Shown here: piece by piece, positions 7,526 to 61,106 of the stretch
How positions within the stretch are numbered: the stretch's first letter is position 1
Layout of the letters: every line of letters starts with the position of its first letter
Assembly: GCA_029204225.1 (NCBI GenBank)
Contig: CM055099.1
Coordinates: 61,659,753-61,723,752, forward strand
Source of the DNA: Diphasiastrum complanatum
Taxonomy: Eukaryota > Streptophyta > Lycopodiopsida > Lycopodiales > Lycopodiaceae
DNA length: 64,000 bases
Reading direction: 5' to 3'
Translations under genes and position numbers: made by a program
The notes under the pieces: model-generated
What the model saw: the letters and a program-made list of their open reading frames with translations, nothing else
Databases searched by the model: none
Told to the model about the DNA's origin: nothing

Positions 7526-7883
7526 TGTTACGAGCTCGTAACCAGTGCCGAACCCTAGAGAACACAGATAGGTCAGATACCACAGTCAGGGTCGTGTCCA
7601 GCGTACATGACCAACAGGGCAAGACAGTGTGAGTAGTGTGCCCCAGCATGGTCCATAGCCATGGCGGGCCTAACACAGCCTAGGGACCCTGTCAGCAGGA
7701 TAGGGCCCCTAGTTGGGTCCCGACGTGCAGTCGGCCACGTCAGTGCCATGTGGCCGACACTTGGCAGTAGCATGCTACCAGTCCTCACACTGGGCTAGGA
7801 GGGGCTTACTCTATATCAGGGAGTAGGCAAGGTTGGGTGGATCAGTTAGTGTTTGCCCTACTGTGGTGTTAGGATCTATTACA
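7526..7883 (+). repeat. 5' LTR of element B (358 bp)
   Basis: TGTTACGAGC...CTATTACA. Bases 7527-7542 are a perfect 16-bp palindrome around SacI-like GAGCTC. A TATA-like CTCTATATCAGG lies at about 7810-7821. Confidence 0.92.
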
Positions 7884-7884
7884 C

Positions 7885-7898
7885 TGGTATCAGAGCCA
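7885..7898 (+). promoter_or_regulatory. Primer-binding site of element B
   Basis: TGGTATCAGAGCCA, one base after the LTR, complementary to initiator tRNA-Met 3' end. Confidence 0.9.
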
Positions 7899-8686: not shown

Positions 8687-11600
8687 ATGACCACTCCTCA
8701 GGGACCTGATCAACCCCAGGAGAGAGGCTTCGACGAACTTGAAACAGAAGCCTTGGCTTACAGAAAAGGGAAGGAACCCATGGAAGTAGAAGAACAGGAA
8801 CAGTTCGCCGAAGAACTCGACGAACTGGTTACCAAGGAGCAGTTCCTCCAATTGGTAACAGAAGTGGATGAACTGAAGCTGGCATTAGCCAATTTCAAGT
8901 CCAGTGTGGACGACTCGTTCGCTGAACTCAAAAACTTGATTTTGAGCTTCGCGAAAGGAAGCCTTCCCTCCACTTCTCAGTTATCCCCTTCTCCACTTCC
9001 ATCAGTTTCGGGTGAGACTTTACGGTCTCACCCCAGTGTTTTTAAAGATTTAAAGCCTCCTACTTTTAATGGGGAAGAGAAGGATAGAAATGCAGATATT
9101 CTACAAACCTTCCTCAGCAAATGGAAGAACATTCATGCTCTTAAACAGACCCCTGACCATTTGCAAGCAATTGAGGCCAGTCTTTCTTTAGGGCCTATGG
9201 CCTATAAGTGGTGGTTAAATCTCCAGGAGACTGGGCAGACTCCCCGGTCATGGAAAGCTTTTGAAGAAGCTTTCCTAAGAGAATTTCTACCAGAGAATGA
9301 ACTTGATAGAGCCTGGGAAGCCTGGGAAAGAACAGTAATGGACAAGTCCCTCATCCAATATATCTCGCAGTATCGAGAGGCAATTTTAAAGATTAAAAAT
9401 ATGGATGACTATCAAAAAATCAGGGGATTTGTCCGTGGCCTCAAAGATGAATATAAAGCAGAGGTCCAGAGAAACTCGCCTACTACCCTTGAGCAAGCTC
9501 TCAGATATGCTCAAATCTATGATGATTCAGTGGGTAGGAAGAGAGCGAGACAACAACCACTTTCTGAGCAGCTTCCTCAGAAAGACTTTCAATTTAAAAA
9601 GAAATTTTTAAAAAGAAAGAAAGAAGATAAATTTAAAGGTGAAGCTCCTCAGAAACGCCCTTCACTCATACAGCCCTTAAAACCAGATGATTTTGAGAAA
9701 GCCAAACAAGAACGTTTGTGCTTTGTGTGTATGGGCAAGGGACACACAGTCAAACAGTGTCCCAAGGGGCCTTTCACTAAAAAAGATAAGAAAGATAAAA
9801 AACAAGTTCATCTTGTTCAGACTGTAAGTTTCCCCAGTGACTCGGCAGCTTCCGAGATCAAAGTGTATCATGAAGATCATGAACACTGTTGCCAGCTGAC
9901 CTCTGCAATGCTAGCGAGACCCTTCAGCTTTGGGCCGCATGACCTAGTACGTATGCATGGGAAAGTTGGTAACCAGTCAGTAAGAGTCATGGTTGATGAT
10001 GGGGCAACCCATAATTTCATCAACCACACCCTGGTTAAAAAGCTTAAACTACCAGAAGTACCTAGTCAGCATAGGTACATAGTTTCATTAGCTAAGGGTG
10101 AAGATAAAAAAATATGGGAAACTATGGTAAGTAAGTTAAATCTTGGTATTCAGGGGTACCAAGATCAAATAAACTTTCAGATAATGCACCTGGATCGAAC
10201 AGACATTGTTCTCGGGAGAGATTGGCTCTACAGTTTAGGACCTTCCCTCCACAGAAACTATCAGGAGAACACCCTCAGCTTTCAGTATAAAGGCCGAGAG
10301 ATCCAGTTGCATGGGGAGCATGATGTTCCCAACAGCCCTATGGTCTGCAGTTTTGAGCTCTGTCAGCTAATCGGAGACGAAGACCATCAGGTATTCTTAT
10401 GTGACTTTCAGTTTATTCCTGAAGTTTCTATTTCCAGTTCTATTCAGCAGAAAATCAGTAAATTAGAAACTTTATTGTCTAAATTTAAAGATGTTTTTCC
10501 TGAAGATTTGCCACATGGTTTACCACCTAGCAGAGAGGTAGATCATGTAATAAACCTAGTACCAGGTACAGCACCTGTTTCTAAACCTCCGTATCGGGTC
10601 AGCCGAACAGAGGATGAAGAAATAACTAGGCAGTTAACAGACTATCTTGGGAAAGGCCAAATTCAGACCAGTAGTTCACCATGGGCCTCACCAGTCCTAT
10701 TGGTGAAAAAGAAAGAGGGGTCTATGCGTCTTTGCGTAGATTACAGAGCCCTCAATAAAGTCACAATTAAGAATAAATACCCTATGCCTCGAGCAGACGA
10801 GTTGTTTGATCAACTCGACGGGGCTAAGTTTTTCAGCAAAATAGACCTCAGATCGGGATATCATCAAGTCCGTATAAAATCGGAAGATGTCTCGAAAACA
10901 GCTTTTAGGACTCGTCACGGTCATTATGAGTTTAAGGTGATGCCATTTGGGCTCACAAATGCTCCAGCTACCTTTATGACCTTGATGAACAGTGTCCTCA
11001 GACCATACTTGGGTAAATTTGTAGTCGTATTTTTAGATGACATCCTCGTTTACAGTAAAACCAGGAAGGAGCATCTAAAACACCTCAGTAAGGTGTTTCG
11101 ACTGCTCAGAAAGCATAAGCTTTATGCTAAACAATCCAAGTTTGAATTCTTCGTTGAAGAAGTAGCATATTTGGGTCACATTATCTCTTCAGATGGGATT
11201 AAGATGGACCCAAATAAGGTTAAAGCCATACTCAGTTGGCTGAGACCTCAGAATATTTTGGAACTTCAAATCTTTCTTGGTCTGGCGGGATATTACAGAC
11301 GATTTGTCAAGGAATATGCTCAGACAGCAGTCCCTATGACAAATCTCCTTAAGGGGAAGGGAAAGGAGTTCATTTGGGAGTCCGCACAACAGGAGAGCTT
11401 TGATGCTCTCAAAACAGCCTTAGCTACAGCACCAGTTTTAAAGGTCGTCGACCCCAATCAGCCATTTGTGGTCGAAACAGATGCTAGCGACTTTGCAGTA
11501 GGTGCTGTGCTAACTCAGGGTGGACGACCAGTTGCGTTCGAGAGTAAAAAACTCGAGCCAGCACAGACTAGGTATAGTGCCTATGAAAAGGAACTCTTTT

Positions 11601-11734
11601 CTATAGTCCATGCCCTTAAGACTTGGAGGCATTATTTGTATGGTGCCAACTTTGAGGTCCAGACCATGAGAGTCTCAGATACCTTTGCAATCAACCTGAG
11701 CTTAGAGGTCGGAAAGCTCGTTGGGCAGAGTTGA
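8687..11734 (+). CDS. Element B ORF1: Gag-protease-RT-RNase H (frameshifted end)
   Basis: 1015 codons from [10 protein letters not shown]. Gag occupies roughly residues 1-340, with [19 protein letters not shown] in its core, a basic stretch and the knuckle [14 protein letters not shown] at 345-358. The aspartic-protease block reads [12 protein letters not shown], with D437-D438-G439 where D-S/T-G is usual. Reverse transcriptase spans about 620-800: [45 protein letters not shown] and the catalytic FLDDILVYS (D784, D785). RNase H follows ([35 protein letters not shown]). A small deletion near 11665, just after the EVQT block, shifts the frame, so the last 30 codons are out of register. The rest of the polyprotein continues as ORF2. 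Probably translated as one polyprotein in the parent element. Confidence 0.92.
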
Positions 11735-13470
11735 TGCAAGAGTTTGACATGTCTATCAGATATAGGCATGGAAAATTCAATACAGTAGCAGATGCCCTTA
11801 GCAGAATGCCTATGATAAACGAGCTGAGTTTTACTCAGATTCGTAATGAGTTACTCGAGTCCTTGAGAGGGAAATGCCAGCATGATGCATTCTTCTCTAT
11901 TATCTGGAACTCAGTCCAGAACAGACAGTTACAGACTCCAGAACCAGTTCCCGAGGCTGGTGCCAGTTCATCCAAGAATACGGCAGCTTCCGTTGAGGAT
12001 GATGATGAGTCCGAGTATACGTCGTCAGATGACGTTGAGGATTCTGAGCCTGTATTACCCAAGCAAACCCCAGTGGTTGAGGGTCAGTTGACTCAAGGAT
12101 TCAAATGGAAACAGTATTCCATTCAGGATGAGTACTTGCTCTATAGAGATAGAGTATGTGTCCCCAATTCAGAGGATTATAGGCAGCAGGTCCTATATGA
12201 ATGTCATGACAATCCTAGCGCGGGACACCCAGGCATACAGAAGACCTATGAGCTTCTTCGTAGGCAATTTTTCTGGCCCAGTATGAAAAGGGACGTCCAC
12301 CAGTATGTAACCAGTTGCCAGAAATGTCAAGTAAATAAAGCAGAGCGTTTAAAGGCAGGAGGGTTGTTGCATCCCTTAGAAATACCAGCTGGTAAATGGG
12401 AGAGTATCTCCATGGATTTTATAGTAGGCGTGCCTAAAACCCAAAAGGGTAATGACGCTATATGGGTCACAGTTGACCGTCTGACCAAAATGGCTCATTT
12501 TATTCCGACCAAAACAACCGTTAGAGCTCCAGAGTTAGCGAGGTTGTTTGTAGACGGGCTATTTAAATTGTACGGTCTACCTTCCGGCATAGTCAGCGAC
12601 CGGGACAGTAAGTTTACTGGAAATTTTTGGAAGGCAGTATTCCATCATCTCCATACTAAACTTAATATGAGTACCACCGACCATCCACAGACGGACGGTC
12701 AAACAGAAAGGGTAAATCAAGTGCTGGAGGATATGCTTCGTGCATACGTCAGCAAGAAGCAGACTAATTGGGAGGAGTATCTCTCGATATTAGAGTTTGC
12801 TTACAACAGTACCAAACATTCAGCTACGGGATACAGCCCATTTATGCTGATGTACGGTTTTCAGCCACGCTCACCCACAGCTGTAGGGTTTAAACAAGAA
12901 AAAGTTGAAGCAGCCAGAAACTTTTTAGAAGACCTAAACCAGATGATAGAACATGCTAAGCGTAGCATTAGACAATCCCAGGATCGAGCCAGGCATTATG
13001 CAGATCCACACAGACGGGATGTGCAGTTCTCCACTGGTGAGAAAGTCTACTTGAGAGTCCCAGTTGACTCTAAAACCCTCAAATCAGGAGTGTGTGCTAA
13101 GTTGTCTCCAAGGTATTGTGGTCCCTTTACCATCAGTAGGAGACTAGGCGAGGTCACCTATGAACTAGAACTCCCACACAGCAGTAAGGTTTTTCCAGTC
13201 TTTCATGTAAGTCAGTTACGAAAAGCCTTAACCAGATCAGATAATCTGGTAGGGGACAGTGTTCTAGTTCTCCCATTGGATCCTCAACAACCTCCACATG
13301 AACCAGAGGAGATTCTTGATAGTAGAGAGACGCAGACTCGTCATACTCTATACCGAGAATATCTGGTTAAGTGGAATGATCAGCCTGTTGAGAATGCCAC
13401 TTGGGAAAGAGGCAGCGTCCTTCGCAAGATTTTTCTAGACTTTGTCTTAGAGGACCAAGACGGTTCTTAA
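11735..13470 (+). CDS. Element B ORF2: RNase H end, integrase, chromodomain
   Basis: This is the continuation of ORF1 after its frameshift, beginning with the connection [25 protein letters not shown]. An acidic linker is followed by the integrase zinc-binding HHCC (CHDNPSAGHPG ... CQKCQ). The catalytic core has D (MDFIVG), D (SDRDSKF) and E (QTERVNQVLEDM) spaced 60 and 35 residues apart, the standard DDX35E layout. The C-terminus has the GPFTISRRLGEVTYELELP barrel-like segment and a chromodomain (REYLVKWNDQPVENATWE), which in chromoviruses guides integration to modified chromatin. It ends at TAA 13468-13470, followed at once by a polypurine tract. No stop interrupts it. Confidence 0.92.
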
Positions 13471-13481
13471 GGGGGAGGGAG
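13470..13481 (+). promoter_or_regulatory. Polypurine tract of element B
   Basis: AGGGGGAGGGAG immediately before TGTTACG of the 3' LTR; primes plus-strand DNA synthesis. Confidence 0.88.
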
Positions 13482-13839
13482 TGTTACGAGCTCGTAACCA
13501 GTGCCGAACCCTAGAGAACACAGATAGGTCAGATACCACAATCAGGGTCGTGTCCAGCGTACATGACCAACAGGGCAAGACAGTGTGAGTAGTGTGCCCC
13601 AGCATGGTCCATAGCCATGGCGGGCCTAACACAGCCTAGGGACCCTGTCAGCAGGATAGGGCCCCTAGTTGGGTCCCGACGTGCAGTCGGCCACGTCAGT
13701 GCCATGTGGCCGACACTTGGCAGTAGCATGCTACCAGTCCTCACACTGGGCTAGGAGGGGCTTACTCTATATCAGGGAGTAGGCAAGGTTGGGTGGATCA
13801 GTTAGTGTTTGCCCTACTGTGGTGTTAGGATCTATTACA
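13482..13839 (+). repeat. 3' LTR of element B (358 bp)
   Basis: Same length as the 5' LTR and differs at one position that I could find. It is followed by the TSD copy CTTCT (13840-13844). Confidence 0.92.
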
Positions 13840-13844
13840 CTTCT

Positions 13845-14549
13845 GCTTCATCTTTTCCCGCTACGTCCACCCCTACATTGGCCCCTTCTGTTCCAGCTCT
13901 CTCCATTGCCCCTTCGCCTCCTCGTCCTCCGACTCCTCGACCTGCTTATGTCCGACGTTACACGTCTGCAGAGTTCGCTGATCTTCAGCAGAAGCGTCTT
14001 TGCTTTCATTGTAAGAGTCCTGACCATCTTGCCCGTGATTGCCGCCAGCCTCTCCCTACTACTACTGCTGTTTTTTACCATGAGGGCACTACTCCAGATG
14101 ATTCCGATATCTACATTCATATTTCTGATGAGCCTGACTTATTATCTGAGCCTTCCCCTGATTTACTTCCTGCTACTTGCCATGCTCAGCTTGCCTATGC
14201 TACTTGGACAAGGCGTCCTGGTCCTCGCTCCATTCGGTTACGTGTGCGTATTACAGGTCGTGAGTATATTGCTTTAGTTGATACTGGTAGCACTCATTCT
14301 TTTATTAGCAGTTATATCACTAGTCGGATCCGTGCTTCACCTATTCCTGCTCTACAGCCTCTCACAGTTGAGGTTGCCAGTTCTCATTCTTTTCCTAGTT
14401 CTCGGATGTTTCAGCGTTTACCATACCGCATTGGAGATTTCTCTAGACAGACAGATCTTTACATTATCCCTATGGAGCGTTATGATCTTATCCTTGGTGC
14501 TGATTGGTTTGCATCTCTTGGAGCCGTTACACTGGACTTGACACAGTAG
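13845..14549 (+). pseudogene. Element A gag end and protease
   Basis: The gag frame resumes after element B with a proline/serine-rich segment, then the knuckle CFHCKSPDHLARDC and the protease (IALVDTGSTHSFIS ... YDLILGADWFASLG). The triad D-T-G is intact. The frame ends at TAG 14547-14549 where element C reads CAG, so this stop is private to A. A second in-frame TAG (14634-14636) lies before the reverse transcriptase and is shared with C. Confidence 0.85.
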
Positions 14550-16310
14550 ACATTGACATTTGTACATGATGCAGTTACACACTCACTTGTTGGCATTGAT
14601 TGTCAGGGAGACTTCCAGTTGATTACTGGGAAGTAGTTTATTCGCAGCCTGCCAAAGGCTCATTGTGCTGCCGTATTATGCGTTCAGCGGGCAGTACCAG
14701 TTCCTCCAGTTTCTACACCAGCAGCTGTTCCTCAGGTGATTTCTGACTTATTACATCAGTATGCTTTTGTCTTTTCAGAACCTACGACGCTACCACCATT
14801 ACGTGACGTGAACCATCATATTGACTTGCGTCCTGGTTCTGCTCCTCCTTCCCGTCCCCCTTATCGTATGTCTCGATCTGAGCGTGATGACCTTGAGCTC
14901 CATATTACTGCCTTGTTAGATCAGGGTCTCATTGTTCCTAGTCACAGCCCTTTTGGTGCTCCTGTTCTCCTTATTAATAAGAAAGATGGTACCAAACGCC
15001 TTTGTATTGATTACCGTGCTTTAAATAAGTTGACTATTCGTAATCAGTACCCTATTCCACACATGGATGACCTCTTTGACCAGCTCGGTACCTCTAAAAT
15101 CTATTCCAAGATAGACCTTCGTTTTGGATATTACCAAATCCGGATGCACCCTTATGACGAACATAAGACTGCTTTCCGTACTCATCTTGGTTTACATGAA
15201 TTTCGTGTGCTTCCTTTTGGTGATACTAATGGCCCTCCTACGTTCCAGAATGTGATGAATAACGTCTTGCGTCCGCGTCTTGGTCATTGTGTCTTGGCTT
15301 ATTTTGATGATATTCTTATTTTTAGTCAGTCTCTTGCTGAGCATGTTGCCCATCTTTCCTCTGTCTTTCAGTTACTTGTACACCACCAGTTATTTGCTAA
15401 GTTGTCTAGATGTTCTTTTGCTGTTTCTGAGATCGAGTTTCTTGGTTTTCTTATTTGTAATGGTCACATTCGTCTGGACCCTCATAAGGTTCAGGCCATC
15501 TAGGATTGGCCTATACCTACTGATATTCATCATGTTCGTATGTTTCTTGGGTTAGCCACTCACCTTCATCGTCCAGTTTCTCATTTTGCCACTATCGCAG
15601 CTCCTCTTCATGCACTTTTGAAGAAGTCTAGTACTTTTCTTTGGACTCCTGATTGTCAGACAGCGTTTGATACTCTTCGTCGTGCTGTTGTTGATGCTGC
15701 CGTTATGTGTTTACGTTGATCAGAAGTTTCTTGTTGAGACTGATGCTAGTAATGTTGGTTTGGGTGCTTTACTTCGCCAGTCACAATGTATTATTGCTTA
15801 TGAGTCGCGTCGTCTTCGCTCTTATGAGCAACGTTATTCTATGCATGAGAAAGAGCTTCTTGCTATTATCTATGCTCTTAAGAAGTGGCGTCATTATGTG
15901 TATCGAGTCCCATTTGACATTATTACTGATCACCAGTCTTTACGTTATCTGTTTTCTCAACGTGACCTTAGTGATCGTCAATTTCGTTGGTTGCAGTTTT
16001 TAAAGTCTTTTAATTTCTCCATATTGTATCGTCCTGGTCGTGCTAACACTGTTGCTGATGCATTATATCGTCTTCCAGCTTTGTTAAATACACTCGTTTC
16101 TACTATTCCTCCATGGTTTGATGCCCTACCCGTAGCATACCTTACATGTTCTGATTTTCGTGATGTTTATGCCCCACCTGTTTCGTCCCGTCCTCATCAG
16201 GTTTACTCCATTAGTGACAATCGTCTTTATCATTATGATTCTCTTTGTATCCTTAGTTCTTTGGGTATCCGTTCCCAGTTGTTGCTCATTCCTCTCCTGT
16301 TGGGAGTCAC
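14550..16310 (+). pseudogene. Element A reverse transcriptase and RNase H
   Basis: In the gag-pro frame after two TAG codons: RLCIDYRALNKLTIRNQYP, KIDLRFGYYQIRM (F where C has S), VLPFGDTNGPPTF and the catalytic YFDDILIFSQS. TAG 15501-15503 replaces CAG of element C. A 5-bp deletion near 15714 relative to C shifts the frame just before RNase H, which is otherwise well preserved (FLVETDASNVGLGALL, YEQRYSMHEKELLAIIYALKKWRHY, ITDHQSLRYLFSQ). The change PPF-GDTN in place of the usual PFGLTN is shared with C and so belongs to the family. Confidence 0.85.
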
Positions 16311-17598
16311 TTTGGTTTTCAGAAGTCTTATGCTCATCTCAAAGACCATTTCTATTGGCCCTCTCTTCGATCTGAGCTTGCTGTACTTATTTGTACCTGT
16401 CCTTTTTGTTTTCGTAATAAGTACTCCCGTGCTAAATCTGCTGGTTTGCTCCAGAGTTGGCCTATTCCTCATCGCCAGTGGACTGATATATCTATGGACT
16501 TTATCCTTGGCCTTCCCCATACCCAGCGTGGTCACGATTCATGTATGGTGGTAGTTGACAGGTTCTCGAAACAGGCACATTTTATCCCAGTTCGCAGTAC
16601 TATCACAGCGGAGCAGTGTGCATGTTTGTTCCTGTCAGAGATTTTCCGCCTGCATGGATTTCCTCGTACTATCCTTTCTGATCGGGATAGTAAGTTTACA
16701 TCTATATTCTGGACAGAGCTTATGCATATTTTGGATGTTCAACTTTTTATGGGTTCTGCTTATCATTCTACTTCTGATGGGCAGTCTGAGGTCCTTAACA
16801 GGATCCTTGAGGATTATTTACGCCATTTTGTTACTCCTTCAGGGAAGGATTGGGATCAGCATTTATGTTTAGCAGAGTATAGCTATAATAGCTCTGTTAG
16901 TACCAGCACAGGTGTCTCACCATTTTTATTATCTCATGGCTATGCACCTCTTTTACCTGGCATTCCTCTTCCTCCTGAGGATACACCTGTTACACTTGCA
17001 TCTTTTCTATCAGGTGCTCGAGAGCTTATTACCCGGGCCAGTTCTCATTTACAGCATGTTTAGCAGCGTTATCAGACCTCAGTTGATCGTCACCGCCGCC
17101 ATGTTGAGTTTCAGCTTGGAGATATGGTTTATCTACGCTTACGGTTTGCACGTCCAGGGCCATGCTTCTACTGAGAAGCTTGCACCACGTTATTATGGGC
17201 CTTATCGCATTGTGGAGGTTCTTAGTCCAGTTACATATCGCTTACAGCTTCCTGCTTCCACACGCGCCTGTGATGTATTCCATTTCAGTTTATTACGTGC
17301 TACTATTGAGGATGACGCTCCTTGTGATGCTGAGTTTCCTACTGCTCCAGAGTTATTTCCATTTTTACCTGCTGCTATATTACAGGTCCGTCTATACCAT
17401 AGTCGACGCCGCCGGCAGATTCAGTTTTTGGTCCAGTGGGATGGTCGTCCTATTGAGGAGGCCACATGGGAGCCTATTGATGTCTTTTATCATACACCAT
17501 TACTTGCGGATTAGGCTCGTGCTCTTGCTGCACTTGTTGATTCCTCTACATCAGATGTTTCTCTAGCTGTTGATGCACCAGGGCTTGCTGCTACTTGA
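16311..17598 (+). pseudogene. Element A integrase and chromodomain-like C-terminus
   Basis: The zinc-binding part is out of frame near 16280-16430. The core is open from 16446: DISMDFILGLPHTQRG, SDRDSKFTSIFW and GQSEVLNRILEDYL give the D, D, E triad. TAG at about 17061 and a frame break near 17160 precede the C-terminal domain (KLAPRYYGPYRIVEVLSPVTYRL). The tail has a chromodomain-like segment, RRRQIQFLVQWDGRPIEEATWE. TAG 17512-17514 replaces CAG of C. The protein would end at TGA 17596-17598. Confidence 0.82.
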
Positions 17599-43875: not shown

Positions 43876-45524
43876 ATGGCACATTCACCTACCCCGAGTG
43901 AGACTATTTAGGAAACCTTAAGGGATCAGTTTCGTCGCATGGATGAGACCCTTTCTGGCCTCGTTCTTCGCTTAGATTCAGTTATGACCGGCTTTGCTAC
44001 TATGCAGTCACAGATTGATTCTTTACAGCCTCATGGTCCTGGTAAAGCTCCTATTTTTACTATATTTGGGACTCCCCCTCCATTTGGATTTCCATTTTCT
44101 TCTGCTAGTCATCCTGGTGGTGGACCGTTCATTCCATCTAACCCACCTCCTGGTTTCTTTCCTTGTTCCCCCCCTTCCTGAGCCACACTTTGCTCGAGAC
44201 TTTCGTGATAGGGTACAACTTGCTACCTATTCCGGTTCCTCTAACGGGAACTTATTAGAGAATTGGTTTGCTAAGCTTGACACATATTTTCAGATTTACC
44301 CTAAGACTGATCCTTAGAAGATCCAGTTGGCTGCTTTACATTTAGATGGACGTGCCACCACATGGTGGCGAGTTTATAGAGCTGATCCTGATCAGGAAGG
44401 GTTCCATGTATGGCATACTTTTCGCCATGACCTCCGCCATGCTATGATTGATCCTCAGTGGCTTGACTCCCAACGTGATACATTCCGTAGTCTCACTCAG
44501 ACCAGTGATCTTGCTTCTTATACAGATAAGTTTATGGAGCTTTCTTATCTTTTCACAGATCTACAGCCCACTGAGCTTATTTCTCGTTACATTGCTGGGC
44601 TTCGTGGTGCTTTACGTTATGATGTTTCTTCCTTCCGTCCTACCACACTTGTTGAGGCGATGTCTCTTGCCAAGTACTTTACAGCATAAGTACTCTGACA
44701 CCCTTCCTTCCCGCTTCTCCCGACCCCATCCTTTTGCTTCATCTTTTCCCGCTACGTCCACCCCTACACCGGCCCCTTCTGTTCCAGCTCTCTCCATTGC
44801 CCCTTCGCCTCCTCGTCCTCCGACTCCTCGACCTGCTATAGTCCGACGTTACACCTCTGCAAAGTTCGCTCATCTTCAGCAGAAGCGTCTTTGCTTTCGT
44901 TGTAAGAGTCCTGACCATCTTGCCCGTGATTGCCGCCAGCCTCTCCCTACTACTACTTCTGTTTTTTACCATGAGGGCACTACTCCAGATGATTCTGATA
45001 TCTACATTCATATTTCTGATGAGCCTGACTTATCCTCTGAGCCTTCCACTGATTTACTTCCTGCTATTTGCCATGTTCAACATGCCTATGCTACTTGGAC
45101 AGGGCGTCCTGGTCCTCGCTCCATTCGATTACGTGTACGTATTACAGGTCGTGAGTATATTGCTTTAGTTGATACTGGTAGCAGTCATTCTTTTATTAGC
45201 AGTTATATGACTAGTCGGATCCGTGCTTCACATGTTCCTGCTTCACAGCCTCTCACAGTTGAGGTTGCGAGTTCTCATTCTTTTCCTAGTTCTCAGATGT
45301 TTCAGCGTTTACCATACCGCATTGGAGATTTCTCTAGATAGACAGATATTTACATTATACCTATGGAGTGTTATGATCTTATCCTTGGTGTTGATTGGTT
45401 TGCATCTCTTGGAGCCGTTACATTGGACTTGACACAACAGACATTGACATTTGTACATGATGCAATTACACACTCACTTGTTGGCATTGATTCTCAGGGA
45501 GACTTCCAGTTGATTACTGGGAAG
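43876..45524 (+). pseudogene. Element C gag and protease
   Basis: The start MAHSPTPSET is the same as in A. There are private lesions: CAG-to-TAG at about 43909 and 44315, an insertion with a stop near 44180, a one-base insertion near 44671 (GCCAAGTACT against GCCAGTACT in A) and CAG-to-TAG at 45339. The knuckle CFRCKSPDHLARDC and protease IALVDTGSSHSFIS are otherwise well preserved. The in-frame TAG at 45525-45527 after the protease is shared with A. Confidence 0.83.
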
Positions 45525-45527
45525 TAG

Positions 45528-46850
45528 TTTATTCGCAGCCTGCCGAAGGCTCATTGTGCTGCCGTATTATGCGTTCAGCGGGCAGTACCAGTTCCTCCAG
45601 TTTCTACACCAGCAGCTGTTCCTCAGGTGATTTCTGACTTATTACATCAGTATGTTTTTGTCTTTTCAGAACCTACGATGCTACCACCATTACGTGACGT
45701 GAACCATCATATTGACTTGCGTCCTGGTTCTGCTCCTCCTTCCCGTCCCCCTTATCGTATGTCTCGATCTGAGCGTGATGAGCTTGAGCTCCATATTACT
45801 GCCTTGTTAGATCATGGTCTCATTGTTCCTAGTCACAGCCCTTTTGGTGCTTCTGTTCTCCTTATTAATAAGAAAGATGGTACCAAACGCCTTTGTATTG
45901 ATTACCGCGCTTTAAATAAGTTGACTATTCGTAATCAGTACCCTATTCCACACATGGATGACCTCTTTGACCAACTCGGTACCTCTAAAACCTTTTCCAG
46001 GATAGACCTTCGTTCTGGATATTACCAAATCAGGATGCACCCTTCTGACGAACATAGAATTGCTTTCCGTACTCATCTTGGTTTACATGAATTTCGTGTG
46101 CTTCCTTTTGGTGATACTAATGGCCCTCCTACATTCCAGAATGTGATGAATAACGTCCTGCGTCCGCTTCTTGGTCATTGTGTCTTGGTTTATTTTGATG
46201 ATATTCTTATTTTTAGTCAGTCTCTTGCTAAGCATGTTGCCCATCTTTCCTCTGTCTTCCAGTTACTTGTACAACACCAGTTATTTGCTAAGTTGTCTAA
46301 ATGTTCTTTTGTTGTTTCTGAGATCGAGCTTCTTGGTTTTCTTATTTGTAATGGTCACATTCGTCTGGACCCTCATAAGGTTCAGGCCATCCAGGATTGG
46401 CCTATACCTACTGATATTCATCATGTTCGTATGTTTCTTGGGTTAGCCACTCACCTTCGTCGTCCAGTTCCTCTTTTTGCCACTATCGCAGCTCCTCTTC
46501 ATGCACTTTTGAAGAAGTCTAATACTTTTCTTTGGACTTCTGATTGTCAGACAACGTTTGATACTCTTCGTCGTGCTGTTGTTGATGCTGCCGTTATGTG
46601 TTTACCACAGTTTGATCAGAAGTTTCTTGTTGAGACTGATGCCAGTAATGTTGGTTTGGGTGCTTTACTTCGCCAGTCACAATGTATTATTGCTTATGAG
46701 TCGCGTCGTCTTCGCTCTTATGAGCAACGTTATTCTGTGCATGAGAAAGAGCTTCTTGCTATTATCTATGCTCTTAAGAAGTGGCGTCATTATCTGTATC
46801 GAGTCCCATTTGACATTATTACTGATCACCAGCCTGTTTTCTCAACGTGA
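45528..46850 (+). pseudogene. Element C reverse transcriptase and RNase H
   Basis: From 45627 the RT frame is open for 407 codons: RLCIDYRALNKLTIRNQYP, RIDLRSGYYQIRM, the family-specific PFGDTNGPPTF and the catalytic YFDDILIFSQS. RNase H continues without a break (FLVETDASNVGLGALL, KELLAIIYALKKWRHYLYR) to DIITDHQ. There an 11-bp deletion relative to A shifts the frame. This is the longest intact stretch in the A/C family and the better reference for it. Confidence 0.87.
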
Positions 46851-48231
46851 CCTTAGTGATCGTCAATTTCGTTGGTTGTAGTTTTTACAGTCTTTTAATT
46901 TCTCCATATTGTATCGTCCTGGTCGTGCTAACACTGCTGCTGATGCATTATCTCGTCTTCCAGCTTTGTTAAATACACTCGTTTCTACTATTCCTCCATG
47001 GTTTGATGTCCTACCTGCAGCATACCTTACATGTTCTGATTTTCGTGATGTTTATAGTTCTGTCCAACCTGTTTCGTCCAGTCCTCATCAGGTTTACTCC
47101 ATTATTGACAATCGTCTTTATCATTATGATTCTCTTTGTATCCCTAGTTCTTTGGGTATCCGTTCCCGGTTGTTGTCGGATGCTCATTCCTCTCCTGTTG
47201 GGGGTCACTTTGGTTTTCAAAAGTCTTATGCTCGTCTCAAAGACCATTTCTATTGGCCCTCTCTTTGATCTGAGCTTGTTGTACTTATTCGTACCTACCC
47301 TTTTTGTCTTCGTAATAAGTACTCCCGTGCTAAATCTGCTGGTTTGCTCCAGAGTTGGCCTATTCCTCATCACTAGTGGACTGATATATCTATGGACTTT
47401 ATCCTTGCCCTTTCCCATACCCAGCGTGGTCACGATTCATGTATGGTGGTAGTTGACAGGTTCTCGAAACAGACACATTTTATCCCAGTTCGCAGCACTA
47501 TCACAGCAGAGCAGTGTGCACGTTTGTTCCTATCAGAGATTTTTCGCCTGCATGGATTTCCTTGTACTATCCTTTCTGATCGAGATAGTAAGTTTACATC
47601 TATATTCTGGACAAAGCTTATGCGTATTTTGGATGTTCAGCTTTTTATGAGTTCTGCTTATCATTCTACTTCTGATGGGCAGTCTGAGGTCCTTAACAGG
47701 ATCCTTGAGGATTATTTATGCCATTTTGTTACTCCTTCAGGGAAGGATTGGGATCAGCATTTATGTTTAGCAGAGTATAGCTATAACAGGGCCATGCTTC
47801 TACTGAGAAGCTTGCACCACGTTATTATGGGCCTTATCGCATTGTGGGAGGTTCTTAGTCCAGTTACATATCGCTTACAACTTCCTACTTCCACATGCGC
47901 CTGTGATGTATTCCATGTCAGTTTATTACGTGCTGCTATTGAGGATGACGCTCCTTGTGATGCTGAGTTTCCTACTGCTCTAGAGTTATTTCCATTTTTA
48001 CCTGCTGCTATATTACAGGTCCGTCTATACCATAGTCGACGCCGTCGGCAGATTCAATTTTTGGTCCAGTGGAATGGTCGTCCTATTGAGGAGGCCACAT
48101 GGGAGCCTATTGATGTCTTTTATCCTACACCATTACTTGCGGATCAGGCTCGTGCTCTTGCTGCACTTGTTGATTCCTCTACATCAGATGTTTCTCTAGC
48201 TGTTGATGCACCAGGGCTTGCTGCTACTTGA
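46851..48231 (+). pseudogene. Element C integrase and chromodomain-like tail, internally deleted
   Basis: The zinc-binding part is intact in frame (AHSSPVGGHFGFQKSYARL ... HFYWPSL), then CGA-to-TGA at about 47268 and CAG-to-TAG at about 47374. The core has MDFILALSHTQRG, SDRDSKFTSIFW and GQSEVLNRILEDYL. After LCLAEYSYN about 265 bases present in A (about 16893-17157) are missing, with an AG microhomology at the join. The C-terminal part QIQFLVQWNGRPIEEATWE is present and ends at TGA 48229-48231. Confidence 0.83.
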
Positions 48232-55540: not shown

Positions 55541-55545
55541 CGAAC
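55541..55545. repeat. Target-site duplication of element F, left
   Basis: CGAAC, repeated at 61102-61106. Confidence 0.92.
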
Positions 55546-56192
55546 TGTGAAAATTGTCAACATTTCCTTGTCTAGTTTTAGGCCAAAATTGCTAAAAATG
55601 GCACATAGTTTAGGATCTGACTTTTCACACGTGTGAAACAGGTCTAGATATTTTTAGTAAGTGTATTTTTTCAGTATGAAGAAGTGTCAAACTTCAAGAC
55701 CTTCGAAATGAGTCCATTTTCATGTATTTTGGACATATATGCCAATTTTACCTATATAGGGCATATTTTAGGTAAGGAGGGTCTAGAGAGAGGAGAGAGA
55801 GTCATCTCTCTCAGCTATATATAGCAGGTAGGCCGTGGAGAAACAGGTTGGAGCAGATCCATTGTATTCATTTGCTTAATGAGAGATTTTTCTATTGGGT
55901 TCTCCTTCCATTGTTGGCATTGTGTAGTGATTGAGTTCAAGCTTTGTGTGTATGATCTTAGGTGCTTTCCAAAAGTGGTAGGCTGATGTATTATGGACTG
56001 TATAATGCTATTTTGGGCCGCACTTGATGTTTATGGAAGTTTCCATTTGTGATAAATGTTTTTTGATCAAGTTCTTTGCATTCTAGGTAGCATAGAATGT
56101 GTTGCCAATTCCTAGCTTATGTAGTTTGGAGTGCAAGCATTCAAGCCAATGATCTTGGAGTTTAGATCCACTTAGGATCTGTATTTTTCACA
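55546..56192 (+). repeat. 5' LTR of element F (647 bp)
   Basis: TGTGAAAATTGTC...GTATTTTTCACA. A clear TATA box lies in CAGCTATATATAGCAGG (about 55813-55829), shortly after a GAGAGAGAGTCATCTCTCTC imperfect palindrome. Confidence 0.95.
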
Positions 56193-56205
56193 TGGTATCA
56201 GAGCT
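56193..56205 (+). promoter_or_regulatory. Primer-binding site of element F
   Basis: TGGTATCAGAGCT starts at the base after the LTR; initiator tRNA-Met type. Confidence 0.92.
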
Positions 56206-57366
56206 GGTTGGCTTCTATTCATAGTAAGTATTCCATTTTTGGTGATATTTGGATGTTTGATCAAGTTCTAGCATGATTTTGCATTGCTTTGTTGATCAAA
56301 TCTTACTAACCTTTGTTTTGTGAGTTGAACTTGTGGATCAAAAGCATATTTCAGGTCTATTGAAGATCAGAGGCTGAAAAGAAACTATTTTGGATCAGAT
56401 CATAACACCTAATCATTTGTTGATTGTGAGGCTTGTGCATATTCAATACTAACAATGTTCTTTTCAATCCTATTGTTGACAATCTCCATTCTTGGATGAA
56501 CACTCTCCTTAAGTGGATGAAACTTCTCCTTAAGTGGATGACAAATGCTCTTTTGAGTGAGTTGTAATTCTCCTAAAGGCTGAGCAAAGCTCCCATTTGG
56601 ATGAAAGATCCCCTTTTTTGGGTGAACATATTGTAAGCTCCATTGTGAAGAGCATATTGTAAAGATTGTCATCAATTTTGGCATAAATTTTGGTGTACTT
56701 TGTTGAGCATGTAAGTAACTCTCCTTATGTAATTTGATTGGAGCATTTGCTGGAAGGTGTTAACCATTATGCAAGTGTGTTTTCAGGTTCTTAACAGGTT
56801 GAGGAACATTCTCATGTGAAGTGATCTTAGATCTACATCTAAACACCAAATTTTGACAAGATAGTGAAGCTAGTCTTGTGATTCACTAAGTGTGCTCATT
56901 CATTCACCTCTAAATATTGTATTTATCACTTGCTGGAGTTTATAAACTTTTAGAAGTGTGGTTTACATGTGGTTTTACAGGTTGAATCAATATCTTAGTG
57001 TGGTGATCATATGTTGATCAAGTTTGTTCATTACTAGGTAATTTTGGCATCCTAGTTTTGGGTATTTTCTAAGAATGCAAGTAACTCTTCACACCATAAC
57101 TTGATTTGGTCACTTGCTGGAAAGTTTGAGAGCTTAAGCAAGAGTGTGTTCAGGTTGGTTTGAGTTTGTAATCCATTCTTAGTGTGTGCAAAGTGTTGCA
57201 TGTGTTTCAATCTTCCTTTCTATGCTTGAAAGCCAAATAGTTTCAAGATAGAGGTCATTTAGGGTTCTAAATCTTTTAAGATCTTCTCCTTCTTCATTTA
57301 TTGAGAGAAAGGAGAGTGCTAGGTGCATTAGAACAGAGCCTAAGGACACAAGAAGATTTTAGCATC
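56206..57366 (+). other. Long leader of element F with internal repeats
   Basis: 1.16 kb without a long plus-strand ORF. Three diverged repeats carry the words ACTTGCTGGA (or ATTTGCTGGA), AAGxGTG and CAGGTT: about 56745-56800, 56925-56985 and 57110-57160. A separate 21-bp tandem CTCCTTAAGTGGATGAAA lies at about 56509-56545. Such a long structured leader could hold a packaging or translation signal. Confidence 0.75.
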
Positions 57367-60300
57367 ATGACATCCAATGGTGGAATCATGTTGGAAGCTA
57401 AAGAGAGGTTAAACTCTACAAACTATTCAACTTGGAAAGTGAGGATGGAGTCTTTACTAGAGTTGAATGAGCTAATGGATATAGTTGTGGGAATTGAAGA
57501 AAGACCTCTAATTCTTCAAGAGCAACTAAATTTTGATAGAAGGGCTAAAAGAGCCTTACATATCATAAAGATGAATGTTACCAATGAACTTCTTAAAGAA
57601 GTTGGTAAATGTACTTCTTCAAGTGAAGCATGGAATGCTTTGAAGAAGATCTATGAGTCCAAATCCACATCTAGGGTTCTCACCCTAAGAAGGCAAATCT
57701 TCCAAAGTTGTCAAAGAGAGGGAGAGAGTGCACATTCATTTGTCTTGAAGGTTAAATCCTTGAATGATGATCTAGCATGCATAGATGAAAGCATAAAGGA
57801 TGGGGAACTAGTTCAAGTCATGTTGAATGGTTTGCTTGATGAACATTCTAACCTTGTACAATGCTTTGCTATACAAAAGTCCTTGCCAAGTGTCAATGAC
57901 TTGCAAGAGATCTTGGTGGCTGAAGAGCATAGGTTGCAAGCCAAAGGTGGTGGTGCATCAACACAAGGTGGAGATGAAGAAGCTCTTTTCACAAAGGGCA
58001 AGTTCAAAGGCAAGTGGTCCAAGCAAGGTAGTTTGGAGCATGGAAAGCATTCTTCTTCTTTGCAAAGTAGGAAGCAAGATAAGTCCAAGTTCAAATGTTT
58101 TTATTGTGGGATAAAAGGACATTTTGCAAATGAATGCCATAAGAAACAAAATGCTAGATCTAGGTTGAGATCTAATGTACTTCTTGGAGATGATAATTGT
58201 TGTGCTAACTTGGCAAGCTTTGGTGAATCTATGGTCAATTTTTTGGATCCATTGGATCTTGAAGATGCACTAGTGTTACCTACTAGTCATATGGAGTCAT
58301 GTGGAGCTAAATTAGCATCATGTTTGTACTCTTCTACTCATGGACTTCCAAGGCTTGGTGGTTCTTCAATGGTGCTAGATGGCAAGTGCAAAAATGGAAA
58401 AGGTAAGGAAGGAGCTAACTTCATCAATGGAGTTGATGAAGATTCTTCTTTGGAAGTGATTGTTGCTAATGACTTGTTTGTTCATATGGAAAAAGATGGA
58501 GATGCTAAGTGTCATTCTTTGCAAGAAGATGGTTGTTCTTCTAATTCTTTTCATATTGATGTATGTAATCATGTGGGAAAAGATGATGGTGCTTTGAGCA
58601 TGCTTGAAGGAAATGGTTCTTTTACATCTTTTTGTGATAAAGTCATTTGTGCAACAAGTGGTGTCACATTTCTTCATAAAAAGAGTAGATCAAAGGTTTC
58701 TATCATGAGACTTGGTGAGGGAGATCACAAGTCAAAAGGAAGAGAAGTATGTGAAGTGTTCAAAGTAGGATGTACTTTGAATGATGTTTTTATGAACGAT
58801 AGTGAGGAAGAATCATTATCATATGACTCATTACCTAAATCATTGAGTAGAAGTTCATGTTTGAAAAGAGAGAGTACTTCAATCACTCTTATGTTGAAGG
58901 TACTAAGGATTCTTTTCTTGGCTTCTAATATTCAAGAGTCTTCTACTTCTTATGGTGCAACTATCAAGAGGGAGGTTTCTAACTTTTGTGGTGCTAGCAT
59001 TAAGAGGGAGTCTTGTGAAGGAAAGGGCAATGGAAGAGTGGTTCTTGGGAAGATCCAAAGCATGGATCTAACATCTCTTCATCAACTCAAAGCATTCTAT
59101 GATTGTGGTGGATTGTTCATTCATGGTCAAGATGGCAAAAGGTTGGTTGAAGAAGACTACATGGAGCAACTCAAGTGGCAACTTCTTCAAGGCAAGGGAG
59201 ATATCATTGGTGAGCTTATTGAGGTTTGTTATGAACTCAAGAGGGCTGTTTTGATTAGGTTTGATACTCATCTTCACCTACTCTACTTCATGTTAAATGG
59301 AAATGTTGGAATCTATCTTTTGGTTTATGATGGTGGCATTGTTTTCACTAACTATAGTGAAGGGTCAAATTTGAGCATTGATGAGATCTTGTGGGATCTT
59401 AATCATGTGTTTGAGAGGGAGTATCTTCAGAGTTTCAGATCTGAAGATGTTCACATATGCAAGATCTTTGATGTCTTATTGGAAGATCAAGAGGTTGATC
59501 TTGGATTGCTTCATCAACACCAAGAGACAAGTGGCAATTCGAAGCTAGTGAAAAGCATCAAAGAAGAGACAAATGGTCAAGGCATTTTGGATCTGTTTTT
59601 ACAGGTTCTTGAAGGTTCAAGTAAGGTCTTTGGAGCTACAAGGAAGTGTCTTCTTACTCTACCTCACTTGCCTAATCTCATGTATGAACATTGTTATGTC
59701 AATGTGTTGAAATTGTCAAATTTCAATAAAACTAGTTCCATAGTTTTGCATCCTTTGGATCTTGGAGATGGAATAGTTATCATTGCTGGTTTGTATGATC
59801 AAGTACATGAATTCATTCAGATCTTGAAAGGTATTGAAGTGGTCAATATGTTTTCTTTTGAACAAAGTTCAAGATCTAGTATTCTAGTGTTGGCAAATTG
59901 GCAACTTGTTGACATTGTAGGATCAAGCGTTGTGTGCAAATCTTGTGGAGGTACTTCAAGTATTTCAAGTTCAGGTTTTGGTCATTCAAATGGAGTAGGG
60001 AACACATCTTTTTGGCATTCATTCACTCAAAGGCTTTCATGGATTGAAGATCTACAAAGGCAAGGTGGTGATGGAAGTTCATTCATGGAGATACATGTTG
60101 CATTCACTATATGTATAGTGAAATGTGGAGGAGGCATGCAAACACTTGTTGATCACTTTCATTTACAACTTGTTTGCTACTATTTTACAGAGAAACCAGA
60201 GATGGATACATGGAGGAATTCATTAATTGAGATTCTATGTTCTTTTACATGTACCATTTTTATGATTCTATGTAAAATTGATGTAAGAAATAGTGAAGCA

Positions 60301-60441
60301 TCCTATATGGACACTATTATCTATATCAATTATGTTGTGTCCTATTTTGTACATATTAGGATCCTTGAGAAGAGATCTATTCTGATGATGGAGATCATTC
60401 TTAAGTTGGAACAAAGTAGTGTTGTAAAACTAGCAAGTTAA
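57367..60441 (+). CDS. Element F ORF: copia-type Gag plus 767 residues of unknown function
   Basis: 1024 residues from ATG 57367 (MTSNGGIMLE). This ATG is chosen over the open frame upstream because it begins the Gag homology. Residues 1 to about 200 are UBN2-type Gag: RLNSTNYSTWKVRMESLLEL, SSEAWNALKKIYESKSTSRV, LKVKSLNDDLACIDESIKDG. A basic region leads to the knuckle CFYCGIKGHFANEC at 244-257. Residues 258-1024 contain no D-S/T-G protease, HHCC/DDE integrase, YVDD reverse transcriptase or RNase H block. They are serine-, glycine- and cysteine-containing with a repeated IKRE motif near 545-560, a hydrophobic patch near 637-660 and two membrane-like segments at about 954-970 and 982-1000. No stop or frameshift occurs. 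I do not recognise this part. Confidence 0.9.
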   Translation: MTSNGGIMLEAKERLNSTNYSTWKVRMESLLELNELMDIVVGIEERPLILQEQLNFDRRAKRALHIIKMNVTNELLKEVGKCTSSSEAWNALKKIYESKSTSRVLTLRRQIFQSCQREGESAHSFVLKVKSLNDDLACIDESIKDGELVQVMLNGLLDEHSNLVQCFAIQKSLPSVNDLQEILVAEEHRLQAKGGGASTQGGDEEALFTKGKFKGKWSKQGSLEHGKHSSSLQSRKQDKSKFKCFYCGIKGHFANECHKKQNARSRLRSNVLLGDDNCCANLASFGESMVNFLDPLDLEDALVLPTSHMESCGAKLASCLYSSTHGLPRLGGSSMVLDGKCKNGKGKEGANFINGVDEDSSLEVIVANDLFVHMEKDGDAKCHSLQEDGCSSNSFHIDVCNHVGKDDGALSMLEGNGSFTSFCDKVICATSGVTFLHKKSRSKVSIMRLGEGDHKSKGREVCEVFKVGCTLNDVFMNDSEEESLSYDSLPKSLSRSSCLKRESTSITLMLKVLRILFLASNIQESSTSYGATIKREVSNFCGASIKRESCEGKGNGRVVLGKIQSMDLTSLHQLKAFYDCGGLFIHGQDGKRLVEEDYMEQLKWQLLQGKGDIIGELIEVCYELKRAVLIRFDTHLHLLYFMLNGNVGIYLLVYDGGIVFTNYSEGSNLSIDEILWDLNHVFEREYLQSFRSEDVHICKIFDVLLEDQEVDLGLLHQHQETSGNSKLVKSIKEETNGQGILDLFLQVLEGSSKVFGATRKCLLTLPHLPNLMYEHCYVNVLKLSNFNKTSSIVLHPLDLGDGIVIIAGLYDQVHEFIQILKGIEVVNMFSFEQSSRSSILVLANWQLVDIVGSSVVCKSCGGTSSISSSGFGHSNGVGNTSFWHSFTQRLSWIEDLQRQGGDGSSFMEIHVAFTICIVKCGGGMQTLVDHFHLQLVCYYFTEKPEMDTWRNSLIEILCSFTCTIFMILCKIDVRNSEASYMDTIIYINYVVSYFVHIRILEKRSILMMEIILKLEQSSVVKLAS

Positions 60442-60454: not shown

Positions 60455-61101
60455 TGTGAAAATTGTCAACATTTCCTTGTCTAGTTTTAGGCCAAAATTG
60501 CTAAAAATGGCACATAGTTTAGGATCTGACTTTTCACACGTGTGAAACAGGTCTAGATATTTTTAGTAAGTGTATTTTTTCAGTATGAAGAAGTGTCAAA
60601 CTTCAAGACCTTCGAAATGAGTCCATTTTCATGTATTTTGGACATATATGCCAATTTTACCTATATAGGGCATATTTTAGGTAAGGAGGGTCTAGAGAGA
60701 GGAGAGAGAGTCATCTCTCTCAGCTATATATAGCAGGTAGGCCGTGGAGAAACAGGTTGGAGCAGATCCATTGTATTCATTTGCTTAATGAGAGATTTTT
60801 CTATTGGGTTCTCCTTCCATTGTTGGCATTGTGTAGTGATTGAGTTCAAGCTTTGTGTGTATGATCTTAGGTGCTTTCCAAAAGTGGTAGGCTGATGTAT
60901 TATGGACTGTATAATGCTATTTTGGGCCGCACTTGATGTTTATGGAAGTTTCCATTTGTGATAAATGTTTTTTGATCAAGTTCTTTGCATTCTAGGTAGC
61001 ATAGAATGTGTTGCCAATTCCTAGCTTATGTAGTTTGGAGTGCAAGCATTCAAGCCAATGATCTTGGAGTTTAGATCCACTTAGGATCTGTATTTTTCAC
61101 A
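60455..61101 (+). repeat. 3' LTR of element F (647 bp)
   Basis: Same length as, and no difference seen from, the 5' LTR; followed by the TSD CGAAC. Confidence 0.95.
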
Positions 61102-61106
61102 CGAAC

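Follow-up and report, generated by a model that had tools for sequence, protein, structure and literature searches.

The window, a stretch of 64,000 nucleotides from Diphasiastrum complanatum, contains an LTR retrotransposon, element F, whose two LTRs show no difference over 647 bp (start TGTGAAAA, end TTTTTCACA). Its ORF (57367-60441, 1024 codons and a stop) encodes Gag followed by 767 residues, hereafter the tail. A previous sequence-only reading had described identical 647-bp LTRs, a perfect target-site duplication (TSD) and an unbroken 1024-codon ORF, and all of these were confirmed on the sequence. The features are the following.

55541..55545, no strand: 5′ target-site duplication CGAAC, by sequence inspection
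55546..56192, + strand: 5′ LTR of 647 bp, same sequence as the 3′ LTR
56193..56204, + strand: primer-binding site (PBS) TGGTATCAGAGC, directly after the 5′ LTR and the same in the partner; we take it to be of the tRNA-iMet type
56193..57163, + strand: leader, compared with that of the autonomous partner
57367..58137, + strand: gag, type gag1
57445-57945, + strand: Retrotran_gag_2 domain within gag
58093-58137, + strand: zinc knuckle (CCHC)
58138..58155, + strand: junction from knuckle to tail
58156..60438, + strand: putatively remodelled pol tail, 761 codons, open frame, amino acids near-neutral
58268..58374, + strand: variant patch, where copy L040 has 13 differences in one block
59101..59415, + strand: RT-palm-like stretch (tail residues 322-426), 31% identity to the partner RT
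59326..59337, + strand: YDGG in place of the partner's YVDD
60064..60189, + strand: approximate site of a 126-bp in-frame deletion in copy L039
60442..60454, + strand: polypurine tract (PPT) GTTGAAGAGGGAG, common to the partner, directly before the 3′ LTR
60455..61101, + strand: 3′ LTR
61102..61106, no strand: 3′ target-site duplication CGAAC

Gag, leader and the autonomous partner

Pfam matched Retrotran_gag_2 to ORF residues 27-193 with 78.5 bits (cut-off 27) and DUF4219 to the ORF with 27.6 (cut-off 27), and the CCHC knuckle at residues 243-257 scored 17.8, under its cut-off of 20.8. Two types of gag were distinguished, gag1 in element F and gag2 in a sister subfamily. Omega was 0.11 for gag1 versus gag2, and again 0.11 for gag1 versus a cousin element, L076; the gag substitutions fell 51/38/126 on the three codon positions and gave a ratio of 0.14. 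Judged by these counts, the Gag of element F is under strong purifying selection, and we predict that it is functional as part of the explanation favored below. The search for further copies that the earlier reading had advised found many in the genome: all 148 scored gag matches were printed as 100% identical (from 119675 first-look candidates), and so were all 59 scored tail matches over 767 residues (from 19135 first-look candidates; window copy included).

An autonomous copia element that matches element F in its LTR ends, PBS and leader, also named as something to look for, was found in the same genome. This partner (gag2, L053-L057) has the same LTR tips, PBS, leader and PPT as element F; it differs in its intact pol of 1054 amino acids and in its LTR of 655 bp, which is 15% diverged (84.9% identity over 644 aligned positions). 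Pol_BBD, integrase and RVT_2 domains were identified in the pol of one copy and the DSGA and YVDD motifs in three, and the partner frame runs through the PPT (VEEGV) into the LTR. The leader of element F is 98-100% identical to that of the partner in each 100-bp block, unlike the adjoining LTR, which suggests that it was recently acquired from the partner. In the sister subfamily, a gag2 identical to the partner's Gag takes the place of a block that starts between 57163 and 57228 and reaches at least 58097. All 145 scored gag2 matches were printed at 100%; 88 of the 145 lie in frames of 1300-1400 amino acids and 17 in the tail class of 1030-1035 amino acids. These alignments indicate that leader and gag are exchanged with the partner and that the tail is kept. 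Given the agreement in PBS, leader, PPT and LTR tips, the partner would supply protease, RT, RNase H and integrase to element F, whose RNA would be packaged with that of the partner, and we infer that this partner probably mobilises element F. The description of element F as non-autonomous, very young and endowed with an intact Gag was borne out.

Origin of the tail

The tail contains no stop in the gag frame, whereas 36 and 82 stops fall in its two remaining frames (log10 P of about −27), in agreement with the earlier view that it is not open by chance and was kept coding. Its start corresponds to an integrase core, its middle to a faint RT palm and its end is like pol, and the whole looks like a remodelled pol. 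Comparison of the tail with the partner RT gave a Smith-Waterman score of 90 (at most 70 in 600 shuffles) and an hhalign E-value of 4e-5 at a probability of 70%. A profile built from the tails scored weakly on the partner RT (8.4 bits, where none of 200 shuffled sequences exceeded 5.8); the direct comparisons were stronger. The claim that no retroelement enzyme motif follows the knuckle holds in Pfam, which is blank for pol domains and does not detect the RT remnant, and fails in the direct comparison with the partner, where a faint RT palm is visible. On this alignment the catalytic aspartate pair of RT is lost, YVDD being replaced by YDGG.

No confident family match to the tail was obtained in Pfam (best E 0.57 for residues 258-1024), NCBIfam, PHROG or PDB, as would be expected if a captured host gene had been fused to Gag. 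However, no host protein came up for the tail when 5.8 billion proteins were searched three times: one search was empty, one returned two plant copia proteins in the Gag part and one a short tail homologue. Moreover, the start, the RT-like middle and the C-terminal end of the tail correspond to copia pol. The host-gene origin suggested by the sequence-only reading thus appears scarcely credible, at a limited sensitivity of the searches that could let a diverged host gene hide behind the many copies.

AlphaFold2 prediction of residues 560-1024 without relatives gave a mean pLDDT of 32 and no fold information, and no internal protein repeats were found in the tail at E 1 or better. We rejected a membrane protein, as the two hydrophobic segments previously noticed near the end proved to be weak (Kyte-Doolittle peaks of 2.07 at 951-974 and 1.7 at 839-857) and were all that pointed that way. 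An overprinted or antisense pol was likewise rejected: for the ten longest of the 15 other-frame stretches of at least 45 residues in the tail the best E was 0.018, and no match came from pol. Codon-usage log-odds scored the reverse frames equally high and so carried no information.

Three diverged cousins, L076-L078, chosen for their intact frames, carry gag-protease-tail ORFs, and BLASTP aligned the tail to its cousins with 48.8% homology over 780 columns. They retain about 200 residues with a DSGA protease motif at the junction, so element F probably lost this stretch by deletion. In older cousins stops are common (31 of 38 among the matches listed first). Some of the broken lengths recur there in pairs, reflecting either propagation or duplicated contigs. 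These stops, and the choice of L076-L078 for intactness, weigh against the explanation favored below.

Open frame and amino-acid sequence

The tails of element F and L076 are separated by 380 substitutions, distributed 128/131/121 over the codon positions, and the N:S ratio of 3.25 over 609 codons is to be compared with a neutral value of 3.26. Purifying selection on the amino acids was not detected over these 609 codons; the last 80 residues may differ locally. None of the 380 substitutions is a nonsense change (21.9 expected), all 11 indels are multiples of three, and the gag frame alone is stop-free, the other two tail frames containing 18-83 stops. Taken together, the even codon positions, the neutral N:S ratio, the lack of stops and the in-frame indels suggest that the open frame of the tail, and not its amino-acid sequence, has been kept. 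The sequence-only reading had named, as evidence against its own idea, clear homology to a known protease, integrase or RT in decayed form, or a dN/dS near 1 with frequent stops in other copies. This was borne out in part: decayed RT homology and a dN/dS near 1 were found, and the accompanying stops were not. A dN/dS near 1 without stops is the combination that we single out as the point of interest. In the cousins, the protease stretch still has an intact motif, yet with 10 N to 2 S changes it too is near-neutral on these few changes, so that the tail is not alone in its near-neutrality.

Within the family of element F, 18 copies differ by 1-16 substitutions per tail, as would be the case for an ordinary decaying pol in a family too young for stops to arise. 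With so few substitutions, the intactness of those copies alone proves nothing. Against simple decay stand the 380 substitutions between element F and L076, with no stop in either, and a simulation (no indels) of stop-free drift from the partner pol to the observed similarity, which required 1.0-1.5 substitutions per site and the rejection of some 190-330 stop-making changes; we therefore consider this explanation unlikely. A constraint at the nucleotide level (RNA structure, packaging signal) instead of translation is very improbable: being codon-blind, it would fit the flat codon-position counts, but divergence is substantial at all positions, and the absence of stops restricted to the gag frame and the indels in multiples of three would be left unexplained.

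Another explanation, doubtful but deserving attention, is that the Gag-tail fusion is a fast-evolving accessory protein, in which purifying and positive selection average to an omega near 1. A Gag extension aiding co-assembly with partner particles would be one example. The frame is open in three intact forms (gag1-tail, gag2-tail and gag-PR-tail), and omega is 0.53-0.61 in four of eight windows of 100 columns. Furthermore, in P0005, a homologue from another data set, the last 60-80 tail residues clearly resemble those of element F and the cousins, more so than the remainder of the tail does, a hint of constraint acting locally. These points are opposed by the flat codon-position counts, the overall neutral N:S ratio and the variants within the family. 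Shared tail variants comprise 17 nonsynonymous and 4 synonymous changes; in the patch of copy L040 (58268..58374) the shared variants number 10 nonsynonymous to 4 synonymous, and all 40 scored matches to the variant patch were at 100%. When gag identity or the patch served to select the copies, their private tail variants numbered 38 nonsynonymous to 5 synonymous; the ratio of 15 synonymous to 3 nonsynonymous in copies ranked by tail-protein identity was discarded on account of that selection. Four copies share a frame length of 1011, and the one of them that was read, L039, has a 126-bp in-frame deletion; this loss of 42 codons seems to have spread, which also speaks against an accessory protein. 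Four other copies of altered length were read, and each contains, in contrast, a frameshift; that the recurring length is the in-frame one favors a frame kept open.

The best explanation, to which we assign a probability of about 0.55, is that element F belongs to a non-autonomous Ty1/copia family, young and present in many copies, that depends on its partner and retains the tail mainly as an open frame. Amino-acid changes would then be tolerated, and stops and frameshifts would not be passed on. Our proposal is that the RNA is protected or licensed by being translated over its full length. If ribosomes travel on until 14 nt before the 3′ LTR, the RNA would be spared a long untranslated stretch after gag, and with it nonsense-mediated decay (NMD) or a translation-linked silencing of short Gag RNA; alternatively, translation in cis could be coupled to packaging. 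Against NMD, passages of PMC6173133 indicate that long 3′ UTRs have only a weak effect of this kind in some transcriptome-wide studies. That the open frame is itself the adaptation, a “ribosome runway” leading up to the 3′ LTR and free of selection on amino acids, is a tentative proposal to which we give somewhat less than even odds. A decayed pol would then have to be translated even though its residues carry no meaning. If true, plant cells may be policing retrotransposon RNAs by the extent of their translation, and parasites of parasites may be adapting to this control. The family addresses the question of what keeps a long ORF in place when it encodes no enzymes, and it is a reminder that a transposon can have a long, unbroken ORF and yet no working protein from it. 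Since the autonomous donor, both versions of gag, the tail cousins and well over 100 copies are all present in a single genome, selection on the frame and selection on the sequence can be separated.

Comparison with known systems

Element F is of the TR-GAG type, and unusual for a tail that appears to be kept as a frame only. As in TR-GAGs, there are two LTRs with a TSD, a PBS, a PPT and a single ORF, in which GAG is the sole domain recognised by Pfam. Passages of PMC8704663 describe elements with a Gag-only ORF as widespread in plants, and a TR-GAG copia element of Arabidopsis, with an ORF of 562 amino acids, that transposes in ddm1 and for which a similar, potentially autonomous element is known. 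Inpactor files elements with only GAG, or with GAG and AP, as TR-GAG (in a portion of PMC6022998); the cousins L076-L078 look like the GAG and AP form, their protease being known here from its motif alone. Element F differs in that three quarters of its ORF are an unrecognisable pol remnant, open without detected amino-acid constraint, and its family in that the exchange of gag and leader with the partner is traced copy by copy.

The protease, integrase, RT and RNase H that follow Gag in frame in an autonomous Ty1/copia element were not found in element F. BARE-2 and LARDs are, like element F, non-autonomous LTR elements. BARE-2 keeps pol and loses Gag translation, whereas element F has an intact Gag under purifying selection and no pol domains in Pfam. 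A LARD carries no domain, as defined in a portion of PMC6022998; element F has a Gag domain and a 1024-codon ORF. The additional ORFs of plant LTR retrotransposons, in the sections of a review concerned (PMC7264820), are separate, lie mostly between pol and the 3′ LTR, and leave pol in place. Like them, the tail adds a long coding stretch that has no known homologues or role, but it replaces pol and is fused to Gag.

In Dasheng/RIRE2 and SNRE, a non-autonomous family tracks its autonomous partner by recombination. These pairs of non-autonomous and autonomous elements, from rice and, with LTR swapping, from soybean, are cited in a passage of PMC3701649. Recombination during transposition bursts, in the part of PMC5668417 that treats it, takes place between members of one LTR family, whereas here it would link an autonomous and a non-autonomous family. 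The family of element F differs from Dasheng/RIRE2 and SNRE in exchanging its leader and gag instead of its LTR, and in retaining the long ORF.

Anatomy and copies of element F

The ORF, the LTR pair and the target-site duplication that the sequence-only reading had assigned to element F, a young non-autonomous Ty1/copia retrotransposon, were borne out, and its LTRs are identical at 647 of 647 positions. The following features of the window are considered here.

57367-60441: ORF of F (1024 codons), Gag (type gag1) followed by the tail (residues 258-1024)
899-1669 and 2491-3246, minus strand: pieces of another copia (RT, Gag), with a Gag 31% identical to that of F
8687-13470: Ty3-like gag-pol with two long ORFs (read from ORF translations), which appears to lie within an older Ty3-like element that is broken (flanking pieces 6629-17514)
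44448-48231: similar broken Ty3-like element (from ORF translations)

F encodes a standard copia Gag (Pfam Retrotran_gag_2, 78.5 bits, plus a CCHC knuckle). The coding frame of the tail is real, having no stop as compared with 36 and 82 in the remaining two frames. Residues 258-1024 gave no confident family in Pfam, NCBIfam, PHROG or PDB searches; the lowest E value in family searches (0.047) came from an NCBIfam antiporter model that scored 14.3 bits, where the cut-off is 94. Proline is rare in the tail (58156-60438), around 1% despite the 761 codons.

The host genome (1.74 Gb, 5176 contigs) was searched for copies, scoring was confined to the best candidates, and all copy counts are lower bounds. 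All 59 scored matches of the tail (best of 19135 first-look candidates) had a printed identity of 100% across the full 767 residues, and 58 of them were stop-free. The 148 scored matches of gag1 (best of 119675) were likewise all printed as 100% identical; 109 belonged to full 1053-aa frames, 39 to frames of other lengths and none to frames of 1300-1400 aa. For the LTR, all 40 scored matches (best of 221) had a printed identity of 100%; 12 LTR pairs could be matched up by position and were spaced by 4907-4925 bp. Two gag1 copies (G000:C13:25401529 and 25406438) lie exactly one element length apart (4909 bp) and the match of copy L027 continues beyond its 3′ LTR, which suggests a tandem pair with a common LTR.

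The autonomous partner and exchange of gag

An autonomous copia with matching LTR ends, primer-binding site and leader, which the sequence-only reading had proposed to look for, is present in the host genome. Its LTR tips, PBS and PPT are identical to those of F, the LTRs as a whole are 84.9% identical, and the leader is 98-100% identical per 100-bp block as far as 57192. Behind its gag (gag2), a pol of 1054 aa runs without a stop and carries DSGA (protease) and YVDD (RT) motifs in three of three copies (L053-L055); the one copy scanned contains Pol_BBD, gag_pre-integrase, integrase, SH3-like and RVT_2 domains. The LTR pairs of two copies show 3 and 6 differences over 655 positions. With gag2 taken from a tail copy as query, all 145 scored matches (best of 120357) were printed as 100% identical; their frames measure 1300-1400 aa in 88 cases, 1030-1035 aa (the tail class) in 17 and other lengths in 40. 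The true copy number of gag2 is probably far higher because the matches listed span contigs C1 to C3 only.

Thirty copies, the window copy among them, were fetched (L012 is incomplete owing to a run of N). Their 3′ LTR, the visible part of the leader and the tail are practically alike, and they carry one of two gags, starting between 57163 and 57228 and reaching at least 58097, which differ at about 20% of nucleotides. In the gag2-tail copy L013, the leader shows no difference from that of partner copy L057 and four from that of L056 (711 positions). Copy L036 (G000:C22) is a recombinant whose gag begins as gag1 and continues as gag2. Since a partner-like leader or gag stands beside an own LTR, we infer that the family of F acquired the partner leader and that a sister subfamily acquired leader and gag, both retaining their LTR and tail. 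This pattern would be the expected outcome of co-packaging and template exchange; recombination during bursts is known in an LTR family (PMC5668417). Two further observations concern gag2: L045 (G000:C12:51882100-51885360) is a recombinant with an internally deleted gag2 and a divergent tail patch, and L013-type copies have an 18-bp lysine-glycine expansion ahead of the knuckle (residues ~215-222) that gag1 lacks.

Comparison of gag1 with gag2 gave a dS of 1.18, a dN of 0.13 and an omega of 0.11 (244 codons). Because neutral evolution on either branch would give an omega near 0.5, the Gag of the non-autonomous F itself appears to be under purifying selection.

Origin of the tail and constraint on its frame

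Alignment of the tail with the partner pol reached a Smith-Waterman score of 90, which none of 600 window shuffles attained (maximum 70). The two align over the RT palm, where the tail has YDGG in place of the partner YVDD, and a profile comparison was concordant (116 columns, E 4e-5, probability 70%). The case for RT homology is moderate, and the tail-profile test alone would be insufficient for it. Most of the tail (~290-575 and 690-1000) is without detectable pol similarity, the upstream score being reached by 34 and the downstream score by 199 of 600 shuffles.

A homologue of 244 aa from another data set, P0005 (39% identity, E 7e-56), came from a protein search with the last 342 residues; its C-terminus is VEEGV, as in the partner pol. 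With P0005 as query, the best 150 of 15465 places in the host genome were scored. The first class (38 matches, 59-67% identity) has a stop within the matched stretch in 31 cases; matches thereafter are mostly 53-56% identical, many with an intact frame 1088 or 1145 aa long, and 21 of the first 83 have frames of at least 1040 aa. The 59-67% class (G000:C9:25021958 and 37 others) is older, mostly broken and nearer to P0005 than is F (39%); it could root the history of the tail.

Three diverged relatives (L076-L078) have the order Gag, protease-type pol stretch, tail. Their Gag is 66-67% identical to gag1 (BLASTP), the middle stretch shares 44-45% identity with partner pol 2-257, WWIDSGASSHM included, and the tail is 45-49% identical to F 249-1021. 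As these cousins carry a protease part before the same tail, F is probably a derivative that lost it. Some 30 residues of the tail, where the integrase core begins, are still covered by the pol match. In L077 and L078, a 29-residue pol piece from just upstream of RT (E 8e-4 and 5e-4; single comparisons) is placed behind the RT-like stretch, so that the pol pieces seem permuted. Between these two copies the protease stretch shows 2 S and 10 N changes, a near-neutral ratio with the DSGA motif retained, and may no longer be constrained.

Selection was estimated from NG86 counts within one genome. Between F and L076, gag gave dS 1.78, dN 0.20 and omega 0.11, and the tail (609 codons) dS 0.28, dN 0.23 and omega 0.83, a value that pools segments of unequal age (dS 0.07 to 0.68 along the tail). 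These figures point to modules of different age, a further sign of exchange. Tail substitutions numbered 128, 131 and 121 at the three codon positions, and codons with a single difference had an N:S of 143:44 (3.25, where the observed spectrum predicts 3.26). The identical test on gag gave 51, 38 and 126 and an N:S of 28:66 (0.42 versus 3.0 expected). Among the 380 tail substitutions separating F from L076, which like the two other cousins was selected for its intact frame, 21.9 nonsense changes were expected and no stop was seen; 11 of 11 indels were multiples of three. For L078 there were 392 substitutions (22.6 nonsense expected) and 12 of 12 indels were multiples of three. The L077-L078 pair, with fewer changes, shows the same trend (20 S and 59 N in the tail, an omega of 0.31 in gag). 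The dN/dS check suggested by the sequence-only reading thus had a divided outcome: amino-acid changes are near-neutral, yet the tails compared contain no stop. The tail is constrained in its frame, and constraint on its sequence was undetected.

Within the family of F, shared variants of 54 tails comprise 17 N and 4 S, many within one linked patch. In 24 copies selected on gag or patch, private tail variants comprise 38 N and 5 S (no-selection expectation 30.9 to 9.8); 18 of these copies were pre-chosen for full-length frames, and their stop-free state is no evidence. Shared gag variants (2 N, 1 S) are too few for an N:S test. Of the 39 gag1 copies whose length is altered, four share 1011 and two share 1028; the one copy read of each length is in frame (L039 has a 126-bp deletion, and the tail of L040 is intact). 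No length occurs twice among the remaining 33, four of which were read and are all frameshifted. In this small sample, changes that break the frame appear to be private, and those that keep it to have spread.

Proposed working of F and known elements

The anatomy of F, its exchange with the partner, the constraint on its Gag and that on the frame of its tail are regarded as established. The enzymes would be provided by the partner and Gag by F itself, while the role of the tail would be to be translated. The partner frame enters the LTR and that of F stops 14 nt short of it; the cousins and P0005 share the VEEGV end, so their frame presumably enters the LTR too. A stop after gag could be penalised in three ways, of which decay or silencing is ranked ahead of packaging in cis, though present data fit all three. 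In the last, packaging would be coupled in cis to translation, a familiar idea. Decay would act on RNA with a long 3′ untranslated region; it is reported in plants and weak in some genome-wide data (PMC6173133). Alternatively, the penalty would be translation-dependent RDR6 silencing, which PMC8892269 describes for the copia element EVD and its short Gag RNA.

A search of open-licence literature yielded no description of a tail kept only as a frame. In its domain content F is classed with the TR-GAG elements (PMC6022998, PMC8704663).
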